Assembly: GCA_002104905.1 (NCBI GenBank)
Contig: MCFE01000123.1
Location: 97,574 to 161,573, forward strand
Origin: Basidiobolus meristosporus CBS 931.73
Taxonomy: Eukaryota; Basidiobolomycota; Basidiobolomycetes; Basidiobolales; Basidiobolaceae
DNA length: 64,000 nt
Reading direction: 5' to 3'
Shown here piece after piece: positions 53,283 to 64,000 of the stretch. How positions within the stretch are numbered: position 1 is the stretch's first letter; the number at the start of each line of letters is the position of its first letter. Below the pieces are notes generated by a model. The model was given only the letters and a program-made list of their open reading frames with translations. It ran no database searches and was not told the DNA's origin. The translations under genes and the position numbers were made by a program.

Positions 53283-53792
53283 AGTGAAATAGAAGAGCTT
53301 GGATCGTAAGCTTAATTCATGCTGAATATTAGTATTAATTAATCACATCTTTAAAATTTCGCGCGAAGTAAAATGCTGGCAAACGTTGTCGACTTGATCT
53401 GAATTCATTGCTGAAATAACTTGTAATGTTTGTCTACTCCAGTGGCAGGATTGAGAATTGTCAGACATCCATGATAGATTACCGAAGATGGAAGGTTTAC
53501 CATCATTCCGAGTGATTACCCTTGTTCCGTAGGTGGCCTATTCACATTCGCTCAGAACCTTCGATGCGCCACAATCCACTCTTATCTTTTTGACATGCAA
53601 ACCGTTTTTATCTTCCTGCTATACAATCCACTTTTGTGCTCTTGATTTACAATTCACTCTTCAATTCTTGATAAGGGACATTGGCACATTTACAATGCTC
53701 ACTAATCTTCCTCATATGGTAAGTCTATATCCCATGATATGGTTCATATATTTTCCATAAACTGTTATATATACGTATGGTAGCTCCATGAT
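53283..53792. promoter_or_regulatory. divergent region between SUKH-like and hydrolase genes
   Basis: 510 bases. TATATATA (53766-53773) lies close before the hydrolase ATG. No other features. Confidence 0.35.
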
Positions 53793-54485
53793 ATGTCATC
53801 AATGAACATAGTTCTAGTCCACGGTGCTTGGGCTGATGGCTCTAACTGGAGTGGAGTCATCCCAGCTTTGCTGAAGTCCGGTCATAATGTGATTTCTGCT
53901 CAATTGCCTCTGACTTCACTCGCTGACGACGTGAACAGGGTCAGGCAACTACTAGATCGTATCCAAGGCCCCACCATCCTTGTTGGCCATTCCTATGGCT
54001 GTGCTGTAATCACTGGTGCTGGAACTGGTGTCAGTCATGTTGTTGGTCTAGTATTCATTGCTGGGTTTGCTCTCGATGAAGGCGAATCATTAGCAGATAT
54101 CTTCTCCAAATATCCAGCATTGGAGAGTGGACAGTACATCAAACCCGACTCGCACGGCTTCCTCTGGGTTGAACCGGAACATTATCCCCAGTATTTTGCC
54201 GCCGACGTAAGTCCAGAGAAAGCAGCAGTGATGGCAGCAGTTCAGAATCCAATCTCAGGCCAAGCATTCACTGACAAGAGTGGACCACCAGCTTGGAAGA
54301 GCCTACCATCTTGGTACCAGGTTTCGGAAAACGACCTAATGATCCCTCCCGAGGCTGAATGGATGATGGCCAAACGCGCGAACTCTACTACCATCTCGCT
54401 CCCTGCCAGTCACTCCTCCCTAGTTAGCCATGCCAAGGAAGTGGCGGAATTCATTTTACAGGCTGTACGAGATTGCACAAGATAG
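53793..54485 (+). CDS. alpha/beta hydrolase (esterase-like)
   Basis: Single exon, 230 residues. The N-terminal strand-loop NIVLVHGAWADGSNWSGVIP carries the HGAW oxyanion motif; nucleophile elbow ILVGHSYGCAVITGA (GHSYG); C-terminal ISLPASHSSLVSHAKEVAEF supplies the His. Such short, cap-poor hydrolases resemble salicylate-esterase-like and bacterial alpha/beta hydrolases of the same length. A catalytic Asp is probable in WYQVSENDLMIP. No signal peptide, so cytosolic. Last gene before the subtelomeric repeats. Substrate unknown. Confidence 0.85.
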   Translation: MSSMNIVLVHGAWADGSNWSGVIPALLKSGHNVISAQLPLTSLADDVNRVRQLLDRIQGPTILVGHSYGCAVITGAGTGVSHVVGLVFIAGFALDEGESLADIFSKYPALESGQYIKPDSHGFLWVEPEHYPQYFAADVSPEKAAVMAAVQNPISGQAFTDKSGPPAWKSLPSWYQVSENDLMIPPEAEWMMAKRANSTTISLPASHSSLVSHAKEVAEFILQAVRDCTR

Positions 54486-55622: not shown

Positions 55623-55825
55623 TAAGCTGTCACTCTCTGCAATGTCTACTACTGCTATTACTGGAATTTTCCCCTTTGCTGAAAAGTTGGATGGATCTAC
55701 CTACCAAGTGTGGGAGTTGAAGATGAAGATTCTGCTACAAGAAACAGGCCTTTGGGATATTGTCATGGGAGAAGAATGCCCTCCTAAAAACATGGGAGCA
55801 GAAGCCTTAAAGCACCAGAAGAAAG
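55623..55825 (+). pseudogene. copia gag start, truncated
   Basis: Continues MSTTAITGIFPFAEKLDGST (ATG near 55641) and WELKMKILLQETGLWDIVMG, ending EALKHQKKV where an inverted LTR fragment interrupts it at 55826. No stops within this piece; it is better preserved than the copies at 3215 and 9540. Confidence 0.8.
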
Positions 55826-55947
55826 TGTTGTAAGAGTCTTGGAGATATTGGAAGTGATTTGGAGAACATGTAGATTATGTGGTTCTCACTTATTGATTTA
55901 TTGAATGTCAAAGTAGTATTTAGACTTTTACATGGTCTTGGCTTAAC
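55826..55947 (-). repeat. copia LTR fragment, cut off by telomeric sequence
   Basis: Reverse-orientation LTR starting TGTTGTAAGAGTCTTGG (plus coordinates), colinear with other copies to CATGGTCTTGGCTTAAC, where it ends at the TTAGGG-type repeat. The remaining ~210 bases of the LTR are absent. Confidence 0.8.
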
Positions 55948-55961
55948 TTAGGGTTTAGGGG
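55948..55961 (+). repeat. interstitial telomeric repeat, innermost
   Basis: TTAGGGTTTAGGGG: two telomere-type units at the junction of the truncated copia LTR and the first LINE tail. Confidence 0.8.
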
Positions 55962-56103
55962 AGGGAAAGTCACCAAAGTAGGTGAAATCTTTATTTGATT
56001 TCAGACAAGTCTAACTACAAATAAAGAAGCCAGCTGGGAATAGAAGATTCCCAAAGTAAACACCAAGTTGAATATGAATAAATCTAAGCTAAAGTTAAGG
56101 CAG
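55962..56103 (-). mobile_element. 5'-truncated LINE fragment (3' tail only)
   Basis: About 140 bp on the minus strand. Its 3' end (left) has the tail GAGGGAAAGTCACC, loop AAAGTA, GGTGAAATCTTTATTTG, shared with all elements of the array; hairpin at 55970-55985. To the right the sequence (CAAATAAAGAAGCCAG...) resembles the 3' UTR of the LINE at 56104. It ends where the next tail begins. Confidence 0.7.
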
Positions 56104-58114
56104 TAGGGGAGGGAAAGTCACCAAGTTGGTGAAATCTTTATTTGAGTTAAGTACTAATCTAGGTGCAAATAAAGAAGCCAATTAAGAGGTCTAGAACCTC
56201 TCTAATAAGTAATCTAATTTATGTTTTGTTTCATCTCTAATGTTTGTTTCAATAAAGTAAAGCTCATCAGGGGTAAATATAAAATTCAGGGGTTTTGGGG
56301 GAAGTACAAATTGTAGATGTTTCTGATCAATATAATCCAAGACTGGAACCCAGCCTGGGATTAGGTGTAGTAGGAAAGGTGTGTGGACTTGTAAGTAGCT
56401 CTGCCACATAGATCTTAGATGGTCCTGAGCCAGTAGTCTTGGTTTCTCAGCTTTTTGAAGTTTTGAAGCAAGCTCTGTTACTACAGCAGAGCCAACCAGG
56501 GTGTGCCAGCAAGAAGATTTCAGGGAGGAGTTAGATTGAAGCCATTGTTTGATGGAGGGGTTATGTGATTTCTGAAGTTTGACTAGGAAGGAAGCACGGA
56601 GATAGACCATTCGGATTTGGTATGGGTAGAAGCCAAAGGCTCCATTAGTTGCATGGATATAGGGAGATACTGGAAGATAAGGTACCAAGGATCTGATACA
56701 CTGATGGAGAAATTTATCCAGGCGGTGAAGTTCTCTGGAGGTTAGGGGTATAATGTGGAGACCAAATTCAAGTACCAGCAGTACATACTGCTTCAGAAGT
56801 ATAGGGATCTTTTGAATTGGAGTGTCTGGAGTGACTACTACCAGAAGCTTTTTGAGAGCCTGCTGGGCAAGATGGATCCTATTATTCAGGTGGAGCTTTG
56901 AGTCAATCCCATGTTGACAAAACGGCAGACCTAGATATATTGCAGTTTGTTGTGGCAGAATGCTAGTGTTCTGTATAGTTGTAGTGCATCCAATTGGGAC
57001 TGTCTTGGAAATTGAGAGTGAGAGGTTGTTGGCAGCCAAGTACTTCTCAATGATGGCAGTGTCTGCTATGGGATTAGGAGTAGCAATCTTGATATCATCC
57101 GCATAGAGGGTTAGTAGTGGATAGGGAGAGTCTGGTGAGGGGCCTTTTGGAAATAAAGGAAAGTCATGCAGGAATATCACAAATAGTAAGGGACCTAGTA
57201 CAGATCCTTGCACTACTCCATTTGGAACCTCATAAGTCTCTGATGTACAACTTGGATGCAAAATTTTGGCTGAGTTCTCACAAAATAGAGAACATACAAG
57301 AAGGGTCATTGGTAGTGTGGTAACTGCTAATAGCTTTCTCCAAAGCAGAGCTCTGTCCACAGAGTCAAAGGCTTTAGTAATGTCAAACAGAATGGTTGGC
57401 AATGAGAATTGAAGTGAACGATCATGGCTTAGCACTACAGCCATATCCAAGGAGAGTTTGGGCAAGAAGCCAAACTGAGAAGGATGGAATGGATATAGTT
57501 GAGATTGCAAGGATCTTGCTATTATAAGCTCAAAGATTTTCTGGCAGGTTGGTAGGAGTGAAACTGGCTGGTAAGAACCTGGGAGTGAGTGTTTCCCCTT
57601 CCCTTTGTATAAGGGTATTACATTTGCCTGTGACCAGACCTTTGGGGTGTCAATTGTTGGGCACAGATAGAGTAGAATGGGAGAAGTAAGTGACTCATTT
57701 TGGAGTAGCACACCCGGAGTAGATTGTAGGTAATCAAGTCATGTCCAGGTGCAGTATTTGCAGGAAGCTTCTTTAAAATTTTCTCCAGAAGCTTTGCTGA
57801 AACCAAAATTGGAGATGTTGGACTGCTAGATATGTTACCAGTATGGTAGAAAGGAGGAGTGGGATGCACGGTTGAATCAAAGAATATAGGGGCCAGTTTG
57901 TCTGGTGATGGTATACTCCTTGCTTGGGGTCTCATGGCTTTATATACTCTTGATATGGACCTTGTGGTGGCATTCATATTTACTAAGGGCAAGGTATCCA
58001 TGATATGAGCCCATAATCTAGTATGCTCAGTGATCTGTAGTGACTTGGAGTAGGAGATTGCGCTTTCCAGGAGGTTCTGTGTTTTTGGGTTAAGGAAACA
58101 TAGGTAGCTGGAAT
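56104..58114 (-). mobile_element. telomeric LINE, subfamily 1, 5'-truncated
   Basis: About 2.0 kb. The 3' tail (56108-56145; hairpin TCACCAAGTTGGTGA at 56118-56132) is at the left, followed by a short 3' UTR and the RT domain. The right end breaks off in the linker between endonuclease and RT (SYLCFLNPKTQNLL) directly against telomeric repeat at 58115. There is no endonuclease or ORF1, a classical 5' truncation. Confidence 0.85.
56191..58114 (-). pseudogene. LINE subfamily 1 reverse transcriptase, 5'-truncated, one frame break
   Basis: Non-LTR reverse transcriptase. The linker piece (58114 to about 57650) gives LWAHIMDTLPLVNMNATTRS and KILKKLPANTAPGHDLITYN. A frame break near 57650 leads to a 506-residue frame with VWSQANVIPLYKGKGKH, SYQPVSLLPTCQKIFELII, FGFLPKLSLDMAVVLSHDRS, LFDITKAFDSVDRALLW, VPNGVVQGSVLGPLLF and the catalytic YADDIKIATP. 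YLGLPFCQHG and a C-terminal region without a Cys-rich finger follow, stop at 56191. The RT core is intact and would be catalytic as far as motifs show. Identity to the neighbouring LINE is moderate, so these are different subfamilies. Confidence 0.85.
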
Positions 58115-58141
58115 TTAGGGTTAGGGTTAGGGGTTAGGGGG
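58115..58141 (+). repeat. interstitial telomeric repeat between LINE 1 and SINE 1
   Basis: TTAGGGTTAGGGTTAGGGG then TTAGGGGG: about four telomere units separating the truncated LINE from the SINE tail. Confidence 0.9.
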
Positions 58142-58637
58142 AGGAAAGTCACCAAGTGGTGAAATCTTTATTTACTTATGACAAGTATCTAAAGAAGCCA
58201 AGTTAATCTGAAGTAATTCCTAGAAAGCTAGGTCTGAGAGATATCTTCCTGGTAAGCCAGGTCTGAGAGTTGAGAAGCTGAGTGGTACTATATTTCCTAG
58301 TTAGCTAGGTCTGAGAGAGGTTTCCTGGAAAGCCAGGCCTGAGAAGTGAGAATCTGAATATATCTGAGCTAAGTTTACTGGTTTGCGGTAGCTGAATTGT
58401 GGCCGGAATGGCCAGTAGACTGGGGGAACTGAGATGAATTTCTGGGCGATCACTGGCCAAATTTACTAGGCAAATCTGACCAATTAGCATTTCAAGGATT
58501 TCAGCCAATCAGAGCCTTTACTTTGCCCGATGGTTGATCAAGCCATCTCCCAATGAGCACACATCAATTTATTGATCAAATTTTGCTGGATCCAGGATTT
58601 GAACCCACAACCATGGGTATGGAAGGGTTAGGGATAA
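58142..58637 (-). mobile_element. telomeric SINE, copy 1 (5' end shortened)
   Basis: About 490 bp, about 98% identical to 63233-63753 by eye. On the minus strand the head (right) has a perfect pol III B box GGTTCAAATCC (complement 58595-58605). The body includes four CCTRG..CYAGG hairpins (58219-58337). The 3' tail (left) is the LINE tail AAATAAAGATTTCACC with hairpin 58149-58162. The A-box segment present in copy 2 is missing here: after GGATAAC the telomeric repeat begins. Confidence 0.8.
58219..58337. repeat. four short hairpins with compensating stems in SINE 1
   Basis: CCTAGAAAGCTAGG (58219-58232), CCTGGTAAGCCAGG (58248-58261), CCTAGTTAGCTAGG (58296-58309), CCTGGAAAGCCAGG (58324-58337). 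Each is followed by TCTGAGAG or CCTGAGAA. Stems alternate CCTAG/CTAGG and CCTGG/CCAGG, so both sides change together. Confidence 0.85.
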
Positions 58638-58653
58638 CTTAGGGTTAGGGGGG
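58638..58653 (+). repeat. interstitial telomeric repeat between SINE 1 and LINE 2
   Basis: TTAGGGTTAGGGGGGG at the head of SINE 1, immediately before the next LINE tail. Confidence 0.85.
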
Positions 58654-58708
58654 GAGACAGTCACCAACAGGTGAAATCTTTATTTCAGTTGAAACAAAGA
58701 AGCCAGCG

Positions 58709-61478
58709 CTACTGTTGTAGCTTTGATACAAGAGTGTGGAGCTGAGGGGAATTTGTAGGTAAGTTAATAAGAAGTGATGATAGTTCTTCAGTGCTCAAGA
58801 CACTGTTCAGTGGGAAGGGGGGTAGCAAGAGAGGTAAGAATGACTTGTGAACAACATTAATGAGGGGAATGTGATAAGGATTGATATTCATCATAAAGGG
58901 AGTGTGCTGCTGCAGATATTGCTGCCAAAGGTCTGTCAAGTACTTCAGGTAGGCCAGCTTGGGTTTTTCTGACTGCAGAATATAGTGAGCAAACTTCTTG
59001 ACTTCAGGATCTCCAAGTATAGTTCTCCAGCAGGAGCCAGGTGTTGTGTGGTGTGTTCTCTTCCAGGCCTTAATCAGTGGGTTGTTGCAGTTGTGAAGTC
59101 TGAGGTATAATCTGGTTCTAAGGTAGAGAAGTCTGATCTTATGGGCATAAACCCAAAAGCACCAAGAATAGCATGTCTGTAGGGGCATTCAGGCAAATGA
59201 GGCACCAAGGAGGTAATGCACCATACTGCAAACTTGTCAAGCTTAGTGCAGTCTCTAGAAGTAAGAGAGAGAAGTGGTAAGCCAAATTCCAGGACAGGGA
59301 AGACAAACTGCTTGAGTAGAAGGAGGCAGCTGGGAGCTGAAGTTGTAGGAGGAGTAACAGCCAGTAGCTTGTGGAGTGCCTGTCTTGCCAGGATAATTCT
59401 CTTCTTCAGGTGTGCTCCAGAGTCTAGTCCAGTAGGAAGGAAAGGAAAGCCAAGATATGTAGCAGAAACCTGAGCAGGTAGAGTGGAGTTCTCCAAGTTG
59501 ATGGGAGAGCCCAAAGGTACTGTCTTTGCAATGGAAAGCTGGAGATTATTCTTCTGCAGATACTGGTGGATGGTCTGGGAGTCTTGTTGCACATTGGAGG
59601 AGGATATTCTGATGTCATCAGCAAAGAGAGTAACCAGGCAGTCAGCTGAGAGTCTTGGGAAATCATTCAGGAAGATGGCAAACAGTATAGGACCAAGCAC
59701 AGAGCCTTGAACCACTCCATTAGGAACTGAGAACACAGCTGATTGCTCACTTGGGTGCAGAATTCTTGCTTGTGGATCCAAAACAGAGACCTGACAAGGA
59801 GGGTGAGAGAGGTACTGGAGAAGCATTGCAACTTGGACCAAAGCAGATTTCTGTCAACTGAATCAAAGGCCTTAGTAATATCAAACAGAACAGAGGGATA
59901 CTTGCACTGGAGAGAGTGATCTTGGCTAAGTATGACTGCATATTCCAAGGAGAGGCCAGGAACAAAGCCAAACTGTGCAGGATGAAACTTGAGGGAGTCA
60001 GAGTAGAGCTCCTGAGCAAGCAGAAGCTCAAACACCTTTCTGCAGGTGGGCAGCAGAGATATTGGCCTGTAGGAGCTAGGATCCAGGTGCTTTCCTTTAC
60101 CCTTGTACAGTGGCAGAACATTTGCAAAGGACCATTCCTCAGGAGTAGAAAGCTGGGCTGAGCATTGCTGAAACAGTGGAAGCAGAAGTGCAGACATGGC
60201 CTTGGTACTAGTCTTCAGAAGCTCATAAGAGATTGTGTCCACACCTGGAGCAGTAGAGTTGGGAAGCCTCTTGAGCACATAATGGATTCTCCTTTGATCA
60301 AGTGCAAGTGGGATGGGCAGAGTCTTGAAGTCAGGATGAAAGCCAGGAGTTGAGTACTGCCTTTGTAGAGAAGAAGATGTTAGCCAGCTGTTCTGTTGAA
60401 GGTAACTTCCTGGAAGAGGGCCTCATTGCCCTGTAGAGTCTTGATACTGTTCTTGTTATAGAGTTGGAAGATTGCAGAGGCAAGGAACTCATAATATGAT
60501 CCCAGAGCTGAGTATGCAGAGTGTGGTGAATTGCCTTGGAGTGGTGTATTGCTGTCAGGAGGAGTTTCTCTGTTTTTGGGTTAGGGAAAGCTCAGGTAGC
60601 TTTGTTGCAGGGCTGAAACAATGGATTCCCATTTTCTTGAGGTAACAGCAGTAGTCTTGCATGGCAGTGAGAGGGAGGCAGACACCAGAATCAGATGCTT
60701 CACAAAGAGCCAGGCAAAGTTGAGATCATCTGGCAGAGAAAGTAGCAAACTGGCAAGCTTCAAGTAGTTCCCAAAGTCTTTCTTCTGATTCTTGGTAGCT
60801 TTGTGGGTGAGACACAGTAAGTTTTGGCAGCTTCTTCTTCACAACTGGTTGCATAGAAAGGGACCAGGCTGGGTGGTCAGAGGCTCTCAAGGATCCTAGC
60901 TCAGCTCCAGAGAATTGCTTAACTTCATTCACAAAGTAGAGGGCAGCAGCAGAAGGGCAGATCCAGTCAACACATCTTTTCTCAGATTGAGCACCTAGTG
61001 CTAGCAGATGGCTTTCTCTCAGGAAGTTCAGTAGGAATGTAGACCTTGGCTTCATTCTTGCAGTCAGAGTAGTCTTGTTCTCAGGATGGGGAATGTTGAG
61101 ATCTCCAAGCAAGATAACAGGTGTTGATATAGATTGTTGGTATTGCTGAACCTTCTGGCATATAACTTGCACTTCCTGAAGGGCAAGACTTGGAGGCAGA
61201 TAGCAGAGCACCAGACTGATAGTTGGCAACTGGAGAGCAGCACAGTAAGGGGAGTAAAGAGGAACACAGAGCTGAGGAGTATTGATGGTAGAAGAGATGA
61301 AGCAGATAGAGGAGGTATTCTTTGTTCTAGGAGTAGAAAAGCAATATAGATTAGTCAAAAGTATAGAGGGTAGCTGGACATCAATCAAACACAGGAGGGA
61401 AAATCTTGAAAGAAGTCTCTCTAGAGTTGGTCTTGATGGCTGTATGCTGTTGCAGTTAAGCAACAGAACTTCAGGTAG
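58709..61478 (-). pseudogene. LINE ORF2: AP-type endonuclease plus reverse transcriptase, several frame breaks
   Basis: Continues in ORF1's frame after the TGA: LPEVLLLNCNSIQPSRPTLE (endonuclease N-terminus), LLCLIDVQLPS at the site of the usual LQET, VILLGDLNIPHPE (GDxN), KRCVDWICPSA, and LRASDHPAWSL (SDH). Then a linker and RT: FANVLPLYKGKGKH, SYRPISLLPTCRKVFELLL, LFDITKAFDSVDRNLLW, VPNGVVQGSVLGPILF, catalytic FADDIRISSS, YLGFPFLPTG, ending LVSKLQQ-stop at 58709. No ATG precedes the endonuclease, so translation would depend on reading through the ORF1 stop or on reinitiation. Frame changes near 60745, 60600, 60360, 59760 and 59130 make this copy non-functional as given; some may be sequence errors. 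Confidence 0.85.
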
Positions 61479-62987
61479 TCAGGCAGAGGTTGTAGCTTCT
61501 TCAGAGGCAGCATTGACAATGTGACCTGCAGAGTCCCAGAGCTCTTCAAATGGTGCATCACTTAAGTCAGCAAGGAGGGAAATGGCATGGTTCTTGAGGA
61601 AGTATGCCACATCATAGGAGGGGGCTTGTCTCTTGATGGCAGCAAAGAAAGACAGAATGGCAACATGGGCTGGAGGCTTGTTGAACAGTAGAGAGTCAGA
61701 GGATTCAGATTCTTCAGGCACTATCTTGAAGTCAGTTTTCAGCCAGTTAAGGTTCTTCTCCACAAAGGCAACAAATGGGTCAGCAATGTTTTGGTCTAGG
61801 ATAACCTCCAGAATCTTCCCTTTTCTCCAGGCCAGGTTGACAATTCTTGAGAGCTGAATATTGCATGCCTTGAGTGCTTTCCTGATGTTGGAAATGGGAG
61901 TCCAGGGAACTTGCTTCAAGTACACCACAGTCCAGGTAGAAGCTGGTGGTAGGTTTGCTGGGGGCTTGTAAGTCCTTCTGTGTTGCAATGGAGCTGCAGT
62001 AGTCAGATTGGAGTCCACATTCTCAGTAGAAGGTTTTCTTGATGTGTCTTGCTGAATAGTACTGGAGCTGGATGTGCTGATAATTCTTGCTAGAACCTTG
62101 CCTGCATAAGTCTGAGGTATAGCTGAGGTGACTGTAGAGGTGGTGGCAGCTGGTGCAGGTGGAGAGGCAGAGACTGAAGCAGGAACTGAGGTCACCTGGG
62201 AGAAGGCAGTGGAAGCAGGTTTTCTGGGAGGAACAGAGTTCACTATCCAGTTGTTCTGTAAAACACTGGAGTAGCTTTTCTGTGGAACAGGATCTTGCTC
62301 TTGAACAGGAACAGAAGCAGGAGGCTGGGGCTGAGCAGTAGTGGTAAGGCAGTGGCACTCCAAGGAAGCTTTTTGCAAGGCATCTCTGGCAGTTTTCAGG
62401 GCAGTATTGGCTTCATTCTTGAGCTTCTTGCATTGGGCATCCAGTCTCTTGTTTTCAATAGCCAGGGCAGTATTGGCAGCCTCTAAATCAGCAATTCTCT
62501 TCTCAATTGCAAGGAATCTCTGAAGAAATGCATCAGTAGAAGTGCTGGCATCTGGGAGAGCAGTGGCAGGAATAGAGTCCATTGACAGTGGGCTTCTTGG
62601 AGGCAAGGAAAGTGGACTGGCAGATTCAGGCACAAAAGGAGATATCCTGGCAGGAGGAGAAGGAGTATCCAAGGCAGTAACAGAGGCAATTCTTGTTGGT
62701 GAAGCAGCAGCAGGGGAGGCAAGCCTGTTCAGAAACTGGGCAGGAGAGAGTGCTTGAGGAGAGGGAGTCTTCAGCTTGCCAAGCATGTCTTCCATCAGAG
62801 TGATACCAATATTCCTGGTGCATTTGCAGAGAAAAGTAAGCTTCCTGAGTCTGCCAGCTCTTCCATTCCTTCTGATAGTTCCTTTGTTTCCACAGTTGGG
62901 GCAAGAAATCTTCTTGACAGACTTGTCAAAGCAATCAAGAACCTTCCTTTCAGGTGTAGTGGGCTCCTGTTGAGGTTTTGGTGGCAT
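61479..62987 (-). CDS. LINE ORF1 protein with zinc ribbon and coiled coil
   Basis: 502 residues from ATG complement 62985-62987 (upstream in-frame codons lack ATG). The N-terminus has SCPNCGNKGTIRRNG...LTFLCKCTRN, a CxxC...CxC zinc-ribbon-like module with basic residues between, reminiscent of DNA-binding ribbons in transposases. A Ser/Pro-rich segment is followed by a coiled coil (FLQRFLAIEKRIADLEAANT, ENKRLDAQCKKLKNEANTA), as in LINE-1 ORF1p trimers. The C-terminal third has a compact domain (WTVVYLKQVPWTPISNIRKA, KGKILEVILDQNIADPFVAF) that may be the RNA-binding part. It ends in TTSA and a TGA (complement 61479-61481). The frame is intact. It lies in the same frame as ORF2. Confidence 0.85.
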   Translation of the reverse strand: MPPKPQQEPTTPERKVLDCFDKSVKKISCPNCGNKGTIRRNGRAGRLRKLTFLCKCTRNIGITLMEDMLGKLKTPSPQALSPAQFLNRLASPAAASPTRIASVTALDTPSPPARISPFVPESASPLSLPPRSPLSMDSIPATALPDASTSTDAFLQRFLAIEKRIADLEAANTALAIENKRLDAQCKKLKNEANTALKTARDALQKASLECHCLTTTAQPQPPASVPVQEQDPVPQKSYSSVLQNNWIVNSVPPRKPASTAFSQVTSVPASVSASPPAPAATTSTVTSAIPQTYAGKVLARIISTSSSSTIQQDTSRKPSTENVDSNLTTAAPLQHRRTYKPPANLPPASTWTVVYLKQVPWTPISNIRKALKACNIQLSRIVNLAWRKGKILEVILDQNIADPFVAFVEKNLNWLKTDFKIVPEESESSDSLLFNKPPAHVAILSFFAAIKRQAPSYDVAYFLKNHAISLLADLSDAPFEELWDSAGHIVNAASEEATTSA

Positions 62988-63056
62988 ATCCAGAGTTTCA
63001 GCTTCAAATTTCAATTTTTGAGATTTTTGGGTGATTTTTGATGGGCGGGATCAAAA

Positions 63057-63070
63057 TTAGGGTTAGGGTT
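63057..63070 (+). repeat. interstitial telomeric repeat at the LINE 2 5' end
   Basis: TTAGGGTTAGGGTT directly after the LINE 5' UTR, marking its 5' boundary. Confidence 0.85.
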
Positions 63071-63218
63071 GCGCGCTGTGACTGCTTTTTACGATTGCAA
63101 GGTCAGAATCCTAGGAAAAAATAAAAATACTTAGTAAAGGTGATTTAATGGATGGATGGATGGATTCGGAGTCAGATTCAATCAAAAAATCAAATCGTTG
63201 ACTAATTTAAAGAGGAGG
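63071..63218. other. unassigned 148-bp block inside the array
   Basis: GCGCGCTGTGACTGC at its start, A-rich middle, (GGAT)n-type run GATGGATGGATGGATT near 63150, then AATCAAAAAATCAAATCG. It matches neither LINE nor SINE nor copia copies in the window. It lies between two telomeric tracts, so it is a separate insertion or captured sequence. Confidence 0.5.
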
Positions 63219-63232
63219 GTTAGGGTAGGGGG
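63219..63232 (+). repeat. interstitial telomeric repeat before SINE 2
   Basis: GTTAGGGTAGGGGG-type degenerate telomere units preceding the SINE tail. Confidence 0.7.
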
Positions 63233-63753
63233 AGGAAAGTCACCAAGTGGTGAAATCTTTATTTACTTATGACAAGTATCTAAAGAAGCCAAGTTAATCT
63301 GAAGTTATTCCTAGAAAGCTAGGTCTGAGAGATATCTTCCTGGTAAGCCAGGTCTGAGAGTTGAGAAGCTGAGTGGTACTATATTTCCTAGTTAGCTAGG
63401 TCTGAGAGTTGTTTCCTGGAAAGCCAGGCCTGAGAAGTGAGAATCTGAATATATCTGAGCTAAGTTATACTGGTTTGCGGTAGCTGAATTGTGGCCGGAA
63501 TGGCCAGTAGACTGGGGGAACTGAGAGGAATTTCTGGGCGATCACTGGCCAAATTTACTAGGCAAATCTGGCCAATTAGCATTTCAAGGATTTCAGCCAA
63601 TCAGAGCCTTTACTTTGCCCAATGGTTGATCAAGCCATCTCCCAATGAGCACACATCAATTTATTGATCAAATTTTGTTGGATCCAGGATTTGAACCCAC
63701 AACCATGGGTATGGAAGGGTTAGGGATAACCACAAGGCTAAGTGTTCTTGGTT
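63233..63753 (-). mobile_element. telomeric SINE, copy 2 (with A box and B box)
   Basis: About 520 bp. Head (right, minus strand): AGAACACTTAGCCTTGTGGT, whose TAGCCTTGTGG resembles the pol III A box (TRGCNNAGYNGG), and 43 bases later the perfect B box GGTTCAAATCC (complement 63687-63697); this spacing is that of a tRNA gene. Body with the same four hairpins (first at 63310-63323). 3' tail with hairpin 63240-63253, AAATAAAGATTTCACC. The tail is shared with the LINEs, so the SINE probably uses the LINE machinery. Confidence 0.82.
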
Positions 63754-63765
63754 AAGGGTTAGGGG
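63754..63765 (+). repeat. interstitial telomeric repeat before the last tail
   Basis: AAGGGTTAGGGG-type units between SINE 2 and the outermost tail fragment. Confidence 0.7.
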
Positions 63766-63798
63766 AGGAAGTCACCAAGTGGTGAATCTTATTATGAC
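63766..63798 (-). mobile_element. outermost, extremely 5'-truncated SINE/LINE tail
   Basis: Only about 33 bases: AGGAAGTCACCAAGTGGTGAA and TCTTATTATGAC, with the hairpin at 63772-63785. The TTATGAC ending matches the SINE rather than the LINE tails. It is embedded directly in the terminal telomere, so it is the most recent or most truncated addition. Confidence 0.75.
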
Positions 63799-63839
<41 letters not shown>

Positions 63840-64000
63840 GGTTAGGGTTAGGGTTAGGGTTAGGGTTAGGGTTAGGGTTAGGGTTAGGGTTAGGGTTAGG
63901 GTTAGGGTTAGGGTTAGGGTTAGGGTTAGGGTTAGGGTTAGGGTTAGGGTTAGGGTTAGGGTTAGGGTTAGGGTTAGGGTTAGGGTTAGGGTTAGGGTTA
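63799..64000 (+). repeat. terminal telomere, (TTAGGG)n
   Basis: About 33 TTAGGG units with one TTTAGGG variant near 63818, running to the window's end in the 5'-3' G-rich orientation expected of a right chromosome end. Confidence 0.97.

Follow-up and report, generated by a model that had tools for sequence, protein, structure and literature searches.

A telomeric LINE with two ORFs in one frame

The window analysed here is a stretch of 64,000 nucleotides from the fungus Basidiobolus meristosporus CBS 931.73 (GenBank assembly GCA_002104905.1, contig MCFE01000123.1, positions 97,574 to 161,573), and its end is also the end of the contig, a terminal TTAGGG/CCCTAA array at 63799-64000. In keeping with a fungal host, the genome yields 9 chitin synthase matches, against hits in 0 of 14 control genomes. 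Inward of this array, on the minus strand, lies a long interspersed nuclear element (LINE) with two open reading frames (ORFs), which we call family A. ORF1 (61479-62987) runs from an ATG at 62987 to a TGA at 61481-61479 and encodes 502 amino acids, in a frame that is intact in this copy. ORF2 (58709-61478), which encodes an endonuclease and a reverse transcriptase, starts in the frame of ORF1 directly behind that stop and ends in TAG. The ORF1 stop and the codon that follows it, TGA CTA (61476-61481), are the proposed site of stop codon readthrough, and the same hexamer is present in a second and distant family, B.

Past the ORF1 TGA, the same frame of the minus strand reads CTA CCT GAA GTT CTG TTG CTT AAC TGC AAC, or LPEVLLLNCNSIQPSRP. 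The first-pass annotation of this DNA had described an ORF1 that ends in GCC TGA CTA and whose frame, with no ATG in between, leads into the N-terminus of an endonuclease; the letters of the window confirm this. Its picture of one continuous ORF1-ORF2 frame holds at the junction and fails further on in the window copy, whose ORF2 carries several frameshifts that leave its pieces in different frames; unbroken copies, in which ORF2 has 922 codons, are found elsewhere in the genome. Family A also has a perfect 7-bp hairpin, CTGTTGC-TTAACT-GCAACAG, just past the stop (61466-61447, minus strand), and this hairpin is not predicted in B.

The ORF1 protein has a Cys-rich N-terminus (CPNC...CKC, a motif read by eye), probably followed by a coiled coil and then a C-terminal domain; every Pfam match to it, coiled-coil-like families among them, falls under the curated cut-off. 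Within ORF2, the APE-type endonuclease domain (60780-61478, minus strand) begins with an LLLNCNS motif that starts 5 codons past the stop, and the reverse transcriptase domain (59137-60606, minus strand) extends over more than one frame in the window copy, with PF00078 matching two pieces. PF00078 also matches family B, whose ORF2 retrieves LINE-1 ORF2p chains from the PDB (best E 1.5e-11) and R2 chains as well. The A endonuclease matches PF14529 (E 6.4e-5) and PF03372 (E 8.5e-4), both under the curated cut-off, and has no match among PDB sequences at E up to 1. The residues N (N8), GDxN and SDH, which we take to be the APE endonuclease motifs, are invariant in eight aligned copies, four from each family. 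Judged by these domains and motifs, A and B are APE-type LINEs, or non-LTR (non-long terminal repeat) retrotransposons, with two ORFs. At the presumed second endonuclease motif, codon 33 of the domain (61478-60780, minus strand), both families have Asp (LIDV); most LINE endonucleases have Glu at this motif.

A PF14529 search of the genome gave 22 matches. One of them, C439, lies above the cut-off (48 bits); its sequence (L145) is a separate, older-looking LINE endonuclease that has no readable junction. The other 21 score 25-27 bits, and several of them fall at known family A loci. Beyond this genome no relatives were confirmed, as searches of viral contigs (with the B reverse transcriptase and the endonuclease alignment) and of contigs from other genomes (with A ORF2) returned pattern hits only.

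Conservation of the junction in two distant families

In a genome search with a query spanning the family A junction, the best 100 of 810 candidates were scored, and all 100 matches contain at least one TGA. The ORF1-ORF2 frame is open but for a single TGA in 18 of these copies, at a length of 1446 codons in 16 and 1463 codons in two. Junction letters came from 108 locus matches, seven of them repeat views, which leaves 101 distinct places (the 100 scored matches and one more in L041). The first-pass annotation had proposed that TGA-CTA be sought in other copies; TGA is present at 101 of 101 places and CTA at 100, the exception being a TTA in L106. The alignment around the junction holds 71 substitutions in 9497 cells, with 22 of 96 sites variable. 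A further 16 loci, mostly B copies that do not include the end of ORF1 but also L141, have no junction match, and the count leaves aside L147-L151, which reach only one base into the stop codon, and L146 and L152, which lack a junction.

Family B is present in the window as a 5'-truncated copy (56191-58118, minus strand) that retains the end portion of ORF2, split between two frames. Its genome search yielded 84 scored matches, of which 15 have a 949-codon ORF2 frame, one of the 15 with a TGA inside. Nine copies with this frame read ...GAG TCT GCC TGA CTA CAA (or CAG) AAC ATA CTC TTA CTC AAT TGC AAC, so that TCT GCC TGA CTA stands at the place matching family A and in the frame of the ORF1 end. 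Across 22 distinct places in family B, TGA is kept at 21 and CTA at all 22. In a search with a B query across the junction, the best 141 of 285 candidates were scored; all listed matches read as B or A, and no third autonomous family appears among those scored. A position-free count finds at least one TGA in 30 of 31 stop-spanning B matches, and one B copy has a frame of 1506 codons with one TGA.

A sense codon at the stop, another stop context, or an intervening ATG with a shifted frame were named in the first-pass annotation as observations that would contradict readthrough. A sense codon is found in a single B copy, L069, which has CAA for TGA. The codon beside its catalytic Asn is altered too, and L069 looks like a decayed copy, with adjoining sequence that reads as copia-like. 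An altered context is confined to the one A copy with TTA, and when read letter by letter neither L037 (family A) nor L040 (family B) has an ATG or a shifted frame at the junction.

Between A and B, the ORF2 proteins show about 47% identity (46-47% across 756 amino acids for most unbroken A pieces). At the 349 residues that are identical between them, the same codon is used at 158 (45%), and among the 76 leucines common to both, CTA is used by both at exactly one, which is codon 1 after the stop. CTA follows only 20 of the 2148 TGA triplets (0.9%) on both strands of positions 1-55900 of the window; the hexamer is therefore not the usual context of a random stop, and a chance origin of TGA-CTA was rejected on this count. 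As comparative evidence, retention of TGA-CTA in two families this far apart is better than its conservation within A.

Variation among the copies bears on whether ORF2 is translated. The ratio of nonsynonymous to synonymous polymorphism (pN/pS) in A ORF2 is 0.28, from 60 nonsynonymous and 71 synonymous variants in the first 726 codons of 24 of 29 copies (five were left out as short or indel-shifted). The part of A ORF1 compared gives 0.33, from 12 variants of each kind in 15 of the 29 copies. The ratio among copies shows ORF2 to be under purifying selection, which means that it was translated while family A spread. This bears directly on the possibility that TGA-CTA merely reflects shared ancestry of young elements and that ORF2 is not expressed from it. 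Low divergence inside family A and the many broken, frameshifted copies would agree with such a history. However, A and B are only about half identical and both include unbroken ORF2 copies, and the low pN/pS of A implies that ORF2 has been translated somehow, so we consider simple shared ancestry very unlikely.

Alternative routes to ORF2: initiation, splicing and recoding

The first in-frame ATG past the stop lies 426 nt downstream in L037 and 177 nt downstream in L040, in both cases beyond the first catalytic Asn, which is codon 8 after the stop. Between the stop and that Asn codon, neither copy contains an ATG in any frame. The 129 nt leading up to the stop in L040 contain no ATG, whatever the frame. 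In L037 three ATGs lie upstream, at -107, -77 and -32, and all are in another frame that meets stops. Nor do A and B share an in-frame near-cognate start after the stop and ahead of the catalytic Asn: CTG and TTG occur there in A, and in B only ATA and none of the usual ones.

Two ways of making a separate ORF2 protein can be set against these observations. After terminating at the ORF1 stop, ribosomes could reinitiate there or close by, in the manner of SART1 or mammalian L1. Stop-start coupling in SART1 and a proposed reinitiation in L1 are described for LINEs (PMC5972666; here and below, papers are cited for the excerpts available), but neither L037 nor L040 has an AUG around the junction from which ORF2 could be fed, and the two families share no near-cognate codon in its place. 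We consider this route unlikely. Alternatively, internal initiation or a second transcript could yield ORF2 from a non-AUG codon, independently of ORF1. Tca2, an LTR element with a stop-separated junction, offers a parallel, as weak promoter activity and no readthrough are reported for it in the excerpted account (PMC7175516). Independent initiation nevertheless leaves unexplained why both families have ORF2 directly after ORF1, without a spacer and in its frame, and why CTA is kept, and again no near-cognate codon is common to A and B; we regard it as decidedly unlikely.

Removal of the stop by splicing was also considered and rejected. The frames of unbroken copies run on, and the first AG in L040 lies past the catalytic Asn codon, 50 nt from the start of the TGA, which excludes a conserved splice acceptor before that codon.

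Since selenocysteine is encoded by UGA, the ORF1 stop might be read as that amino acid, or might have been reassigned. The Rfam library includes models of SECIS, the selenocysteine insertion sequence, and nothing in it matches positions 56000 to 63800 of the window, up to an E of 1. The examined part of A ORF2 has 0 TGA against 7 TGG, B ORF2 has 11 TGG, and the counted parts of ORF2 contain no further in-frame TGA. In a PF00078 search of the genome, the best 150 of 2913 candidates were scored, and all 150 of these matches, which we took for LTR elements, are free of internal stops, with open frames of up to 1463 amino acids; this argues against reassignment. Either form of recoding appears extremely improbable.

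Readthrough as the probable expression strategy

The two ORFs occupy one frame, TGA-CTA separates them in both of these distant families, ORF2 lacks a usable start codon at its head, and ORF2 evolves under purifying selection. The best explanation, and in our judgement a likely one, is that ORF2 is made as an ORF1-ORF2 fusion by UGA-CUA readthrough. The ORF1 protein, terminating at the UGA, would be the main product. Ribosomes would decode this UGA in its CUA context with a near-cognate tRNA, often enough to be useful, and the minor ORF1-ORF2 fusion, either as such or after processing, would be the working reverse transcriptase enzyme. Such an arrangement may be advantageous in keeping ORF1 protein at a constant excess relative to the enzyme, as with Gag and Gag-Pol in retroviruses that have leaky stops. 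The first-pass annotation had called UGA-CUA a leaky context, and this is borne out for a fungus, as UGA CU suffices for efficient readthrough in Ustilago maydis, and in HeLa cells readthrough gains further from an A at +3 (PMC4207609). Its interpretation of the ORF1-ORF2 junction as a readthrough site is supported by the comparison of sequences presented here.

Several observations nonetheless weigh against readthrough. Over the 101 A copies, about 0.9 to 2.3 changes would be expected at the three stop positions (by our own arithmetic, without and with two common polymorphisms, respectively), and 0 are seen; with copies this young and this similar, retention of the TGA is no proof of selection within this family. 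The comparison between A and B covers two families only, part of their identity is inheritance from a common ancestor, and elsewhere the alignment of their ORF2s contains 18 consecutive identical nt. A stimulatory RNA structure 3' of the stop is found in many, though not all, cases of UGA-CUA readthrough. Here the 119 nt downstream fold with z -1.40 in A and -1.22 in B, into structures that differ; when the 42 nt before CUA are added, the family A fold has z 0.19. Because these folds are barely better than shuffles and are unlike in A and B, we claim no conserved downstream stem. The strongest known readthrough motif is UGA CUA G (PMC12233894), and the base after CUA in both families is C, unlike the G of that motif. 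Finally, the in-frame gag/pol stop of Tca2 gave no readthrough in a reporter, according to the excerpted report (PMC7175516).

How LINEs express their second ORF is an old question to which varied answers have been given, among them reinitiation, frameshifting and 2A. Searches confined to open-licence PMC papers, as represented by their excerpts, turned up no LINE with a stop-readthrough strategy, which is no proof that none has been published. If ORF2 of families A and B is indeed made by readthrough, a retrovirus-like strategy, unusual for such elements, would be added to those of LINEs. If confirmed, it would also make the stop context a possible annotation clue for two-ORF LINE pairs in which the second ORF has no start.

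Chromosome ends and probably dependent elements

The 3' tail of the window element (58651-58686, minus strand) reads GAAATAAAGATTTCACC..GGTGACTG..CCCC, then CCCTAACCCTAA, and a tail of the form AAATAAAGATTTCACC...GGTGA...CCCC is common to A, B, ORF1-only elements and elements resembling short interspersed elements (SINEs). In the window and at L040-L068, CCCTAA occurs within 45 nt past 52 of 62 tails, 32 of those as CCCTAACC, and 10 of the 62 have neither; a single CCCTAA after a tail is weak evidence, because the tail itself ends in C's. The 3' flanks at L040-L068 contain arrays of 5'-truncated elements with short stretches of telomeric repeat between them, and another truncated element is often the next feature. 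On their own contigs, 99 of the 100 scored A matches and 79 of the 84 scored B matches lie on the minus strand, many of them near the right end of the contig. The sense strand in the window runs from the telomere inwards, an orientation that would be expected if either the G-rich end of the chromosome or a nick within the repeat had served to prime the cDNA. From its flanks and position, the family A element is a telomere-inserted two-ORF LINE.

The ORF1-only elements have an ORF1-like C-terminal domain, with matches 29-42% identical to A ORF1, together with the LINE 3' tail and no ORF2. They fall into two families and occur at L045, L051, L052, L053, L062, L064 and other loci. In the first family, ...LTLA TAG ATT is found at 13 distinct places. 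At 12 of these the ORF1 frame could be followed for 9 or more codons, and the 13th is a truncated fragment in the window; at a 14th, L049, one T is missing and the frame runs on. The second family has TTG TAG GCT at 2 loci. TAG is also the codon that ends ORF2 in the A and B copies of the window. Among the LINEs and ORF1-only elements compared, TGA-CTA is found only where an ORF2 follows. A or B probably mobilised the ORF1-only elements in trans. The fragment in the window lies at about 56104-55957.

Two SINE-like copies (63230-63752 and 58140-58640, minus strand) have 97% mean column identity and carry the LINE 3' tail and a B-box-like GGTTCAAATCC. ARAGORN predicts no tRNA in 55800-64000. Further inward, about 10 kb from the telomere, is an alpha/beta hydrolase gene at 53784-54485 on the plus strand (PF12697, E 1.1e-22).

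Putting these elements together, we lean somewhat towards a fungal lineage of telomere LINEs that would control the ratio of its products at a leaky UGA-CUA, in the style of Gag and Gag-Pol, and whose machinery would also serve, in trans, the ORF1-only elements and tRNA-like SINEs with the same 3' tail, all of them being added to chromosome ends. A conserved leaky stop would further imply that a parasite of fungal telomeres depends on the fidelity with which its host terminates translation.

Comparison with known systems

TRAS and SART are telomere-specific LINEs of insects. Families A and B resemble them in having two ORFs, an APE endonuclease joined to a reverse transcriptase, and insertion into telomeric repeats. 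They differ in how the second ORF is reached, as SART1 restarts at an overlapping stop-start (PMC5972666), whereas A and B have no start codon and a continuous frame. HeT-A of Drosophila is likewise a telomere element whose Gag needs recoding, and it has no reverse transcriptase of its own, like the ORF1-only elements described here; its recoding is by frameshifting (PMC5009743), whereas readthrough is proposed for A and B.

In stop context there is a match with the cellular UGA-CUA readthrough genes of fungi and animals, which have the same codons and are leaky in U. maydis and HeLa cells. However, the extensions of those cellular genes carry a peroxisomal targeting signal (PMC4207609), whereas the extension in A and B would be an enzyme of 922-949 amino acids. 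Tca2 of Candida albicans differs in being an LTR element, and one in which readthrough was tested and found absent, according to the excerpted account (PMC7175516). In overall arrangement the likeness is to Gag-Pol of Moloney murine leukaemia virus, where the polymerase lies in the frame of the upstream ORF behind one stop; there, however, the stop is UAG and the element a retrovirus (PMC5009743), whereas in A and B it is UGA-CUA and the element is a LINE.

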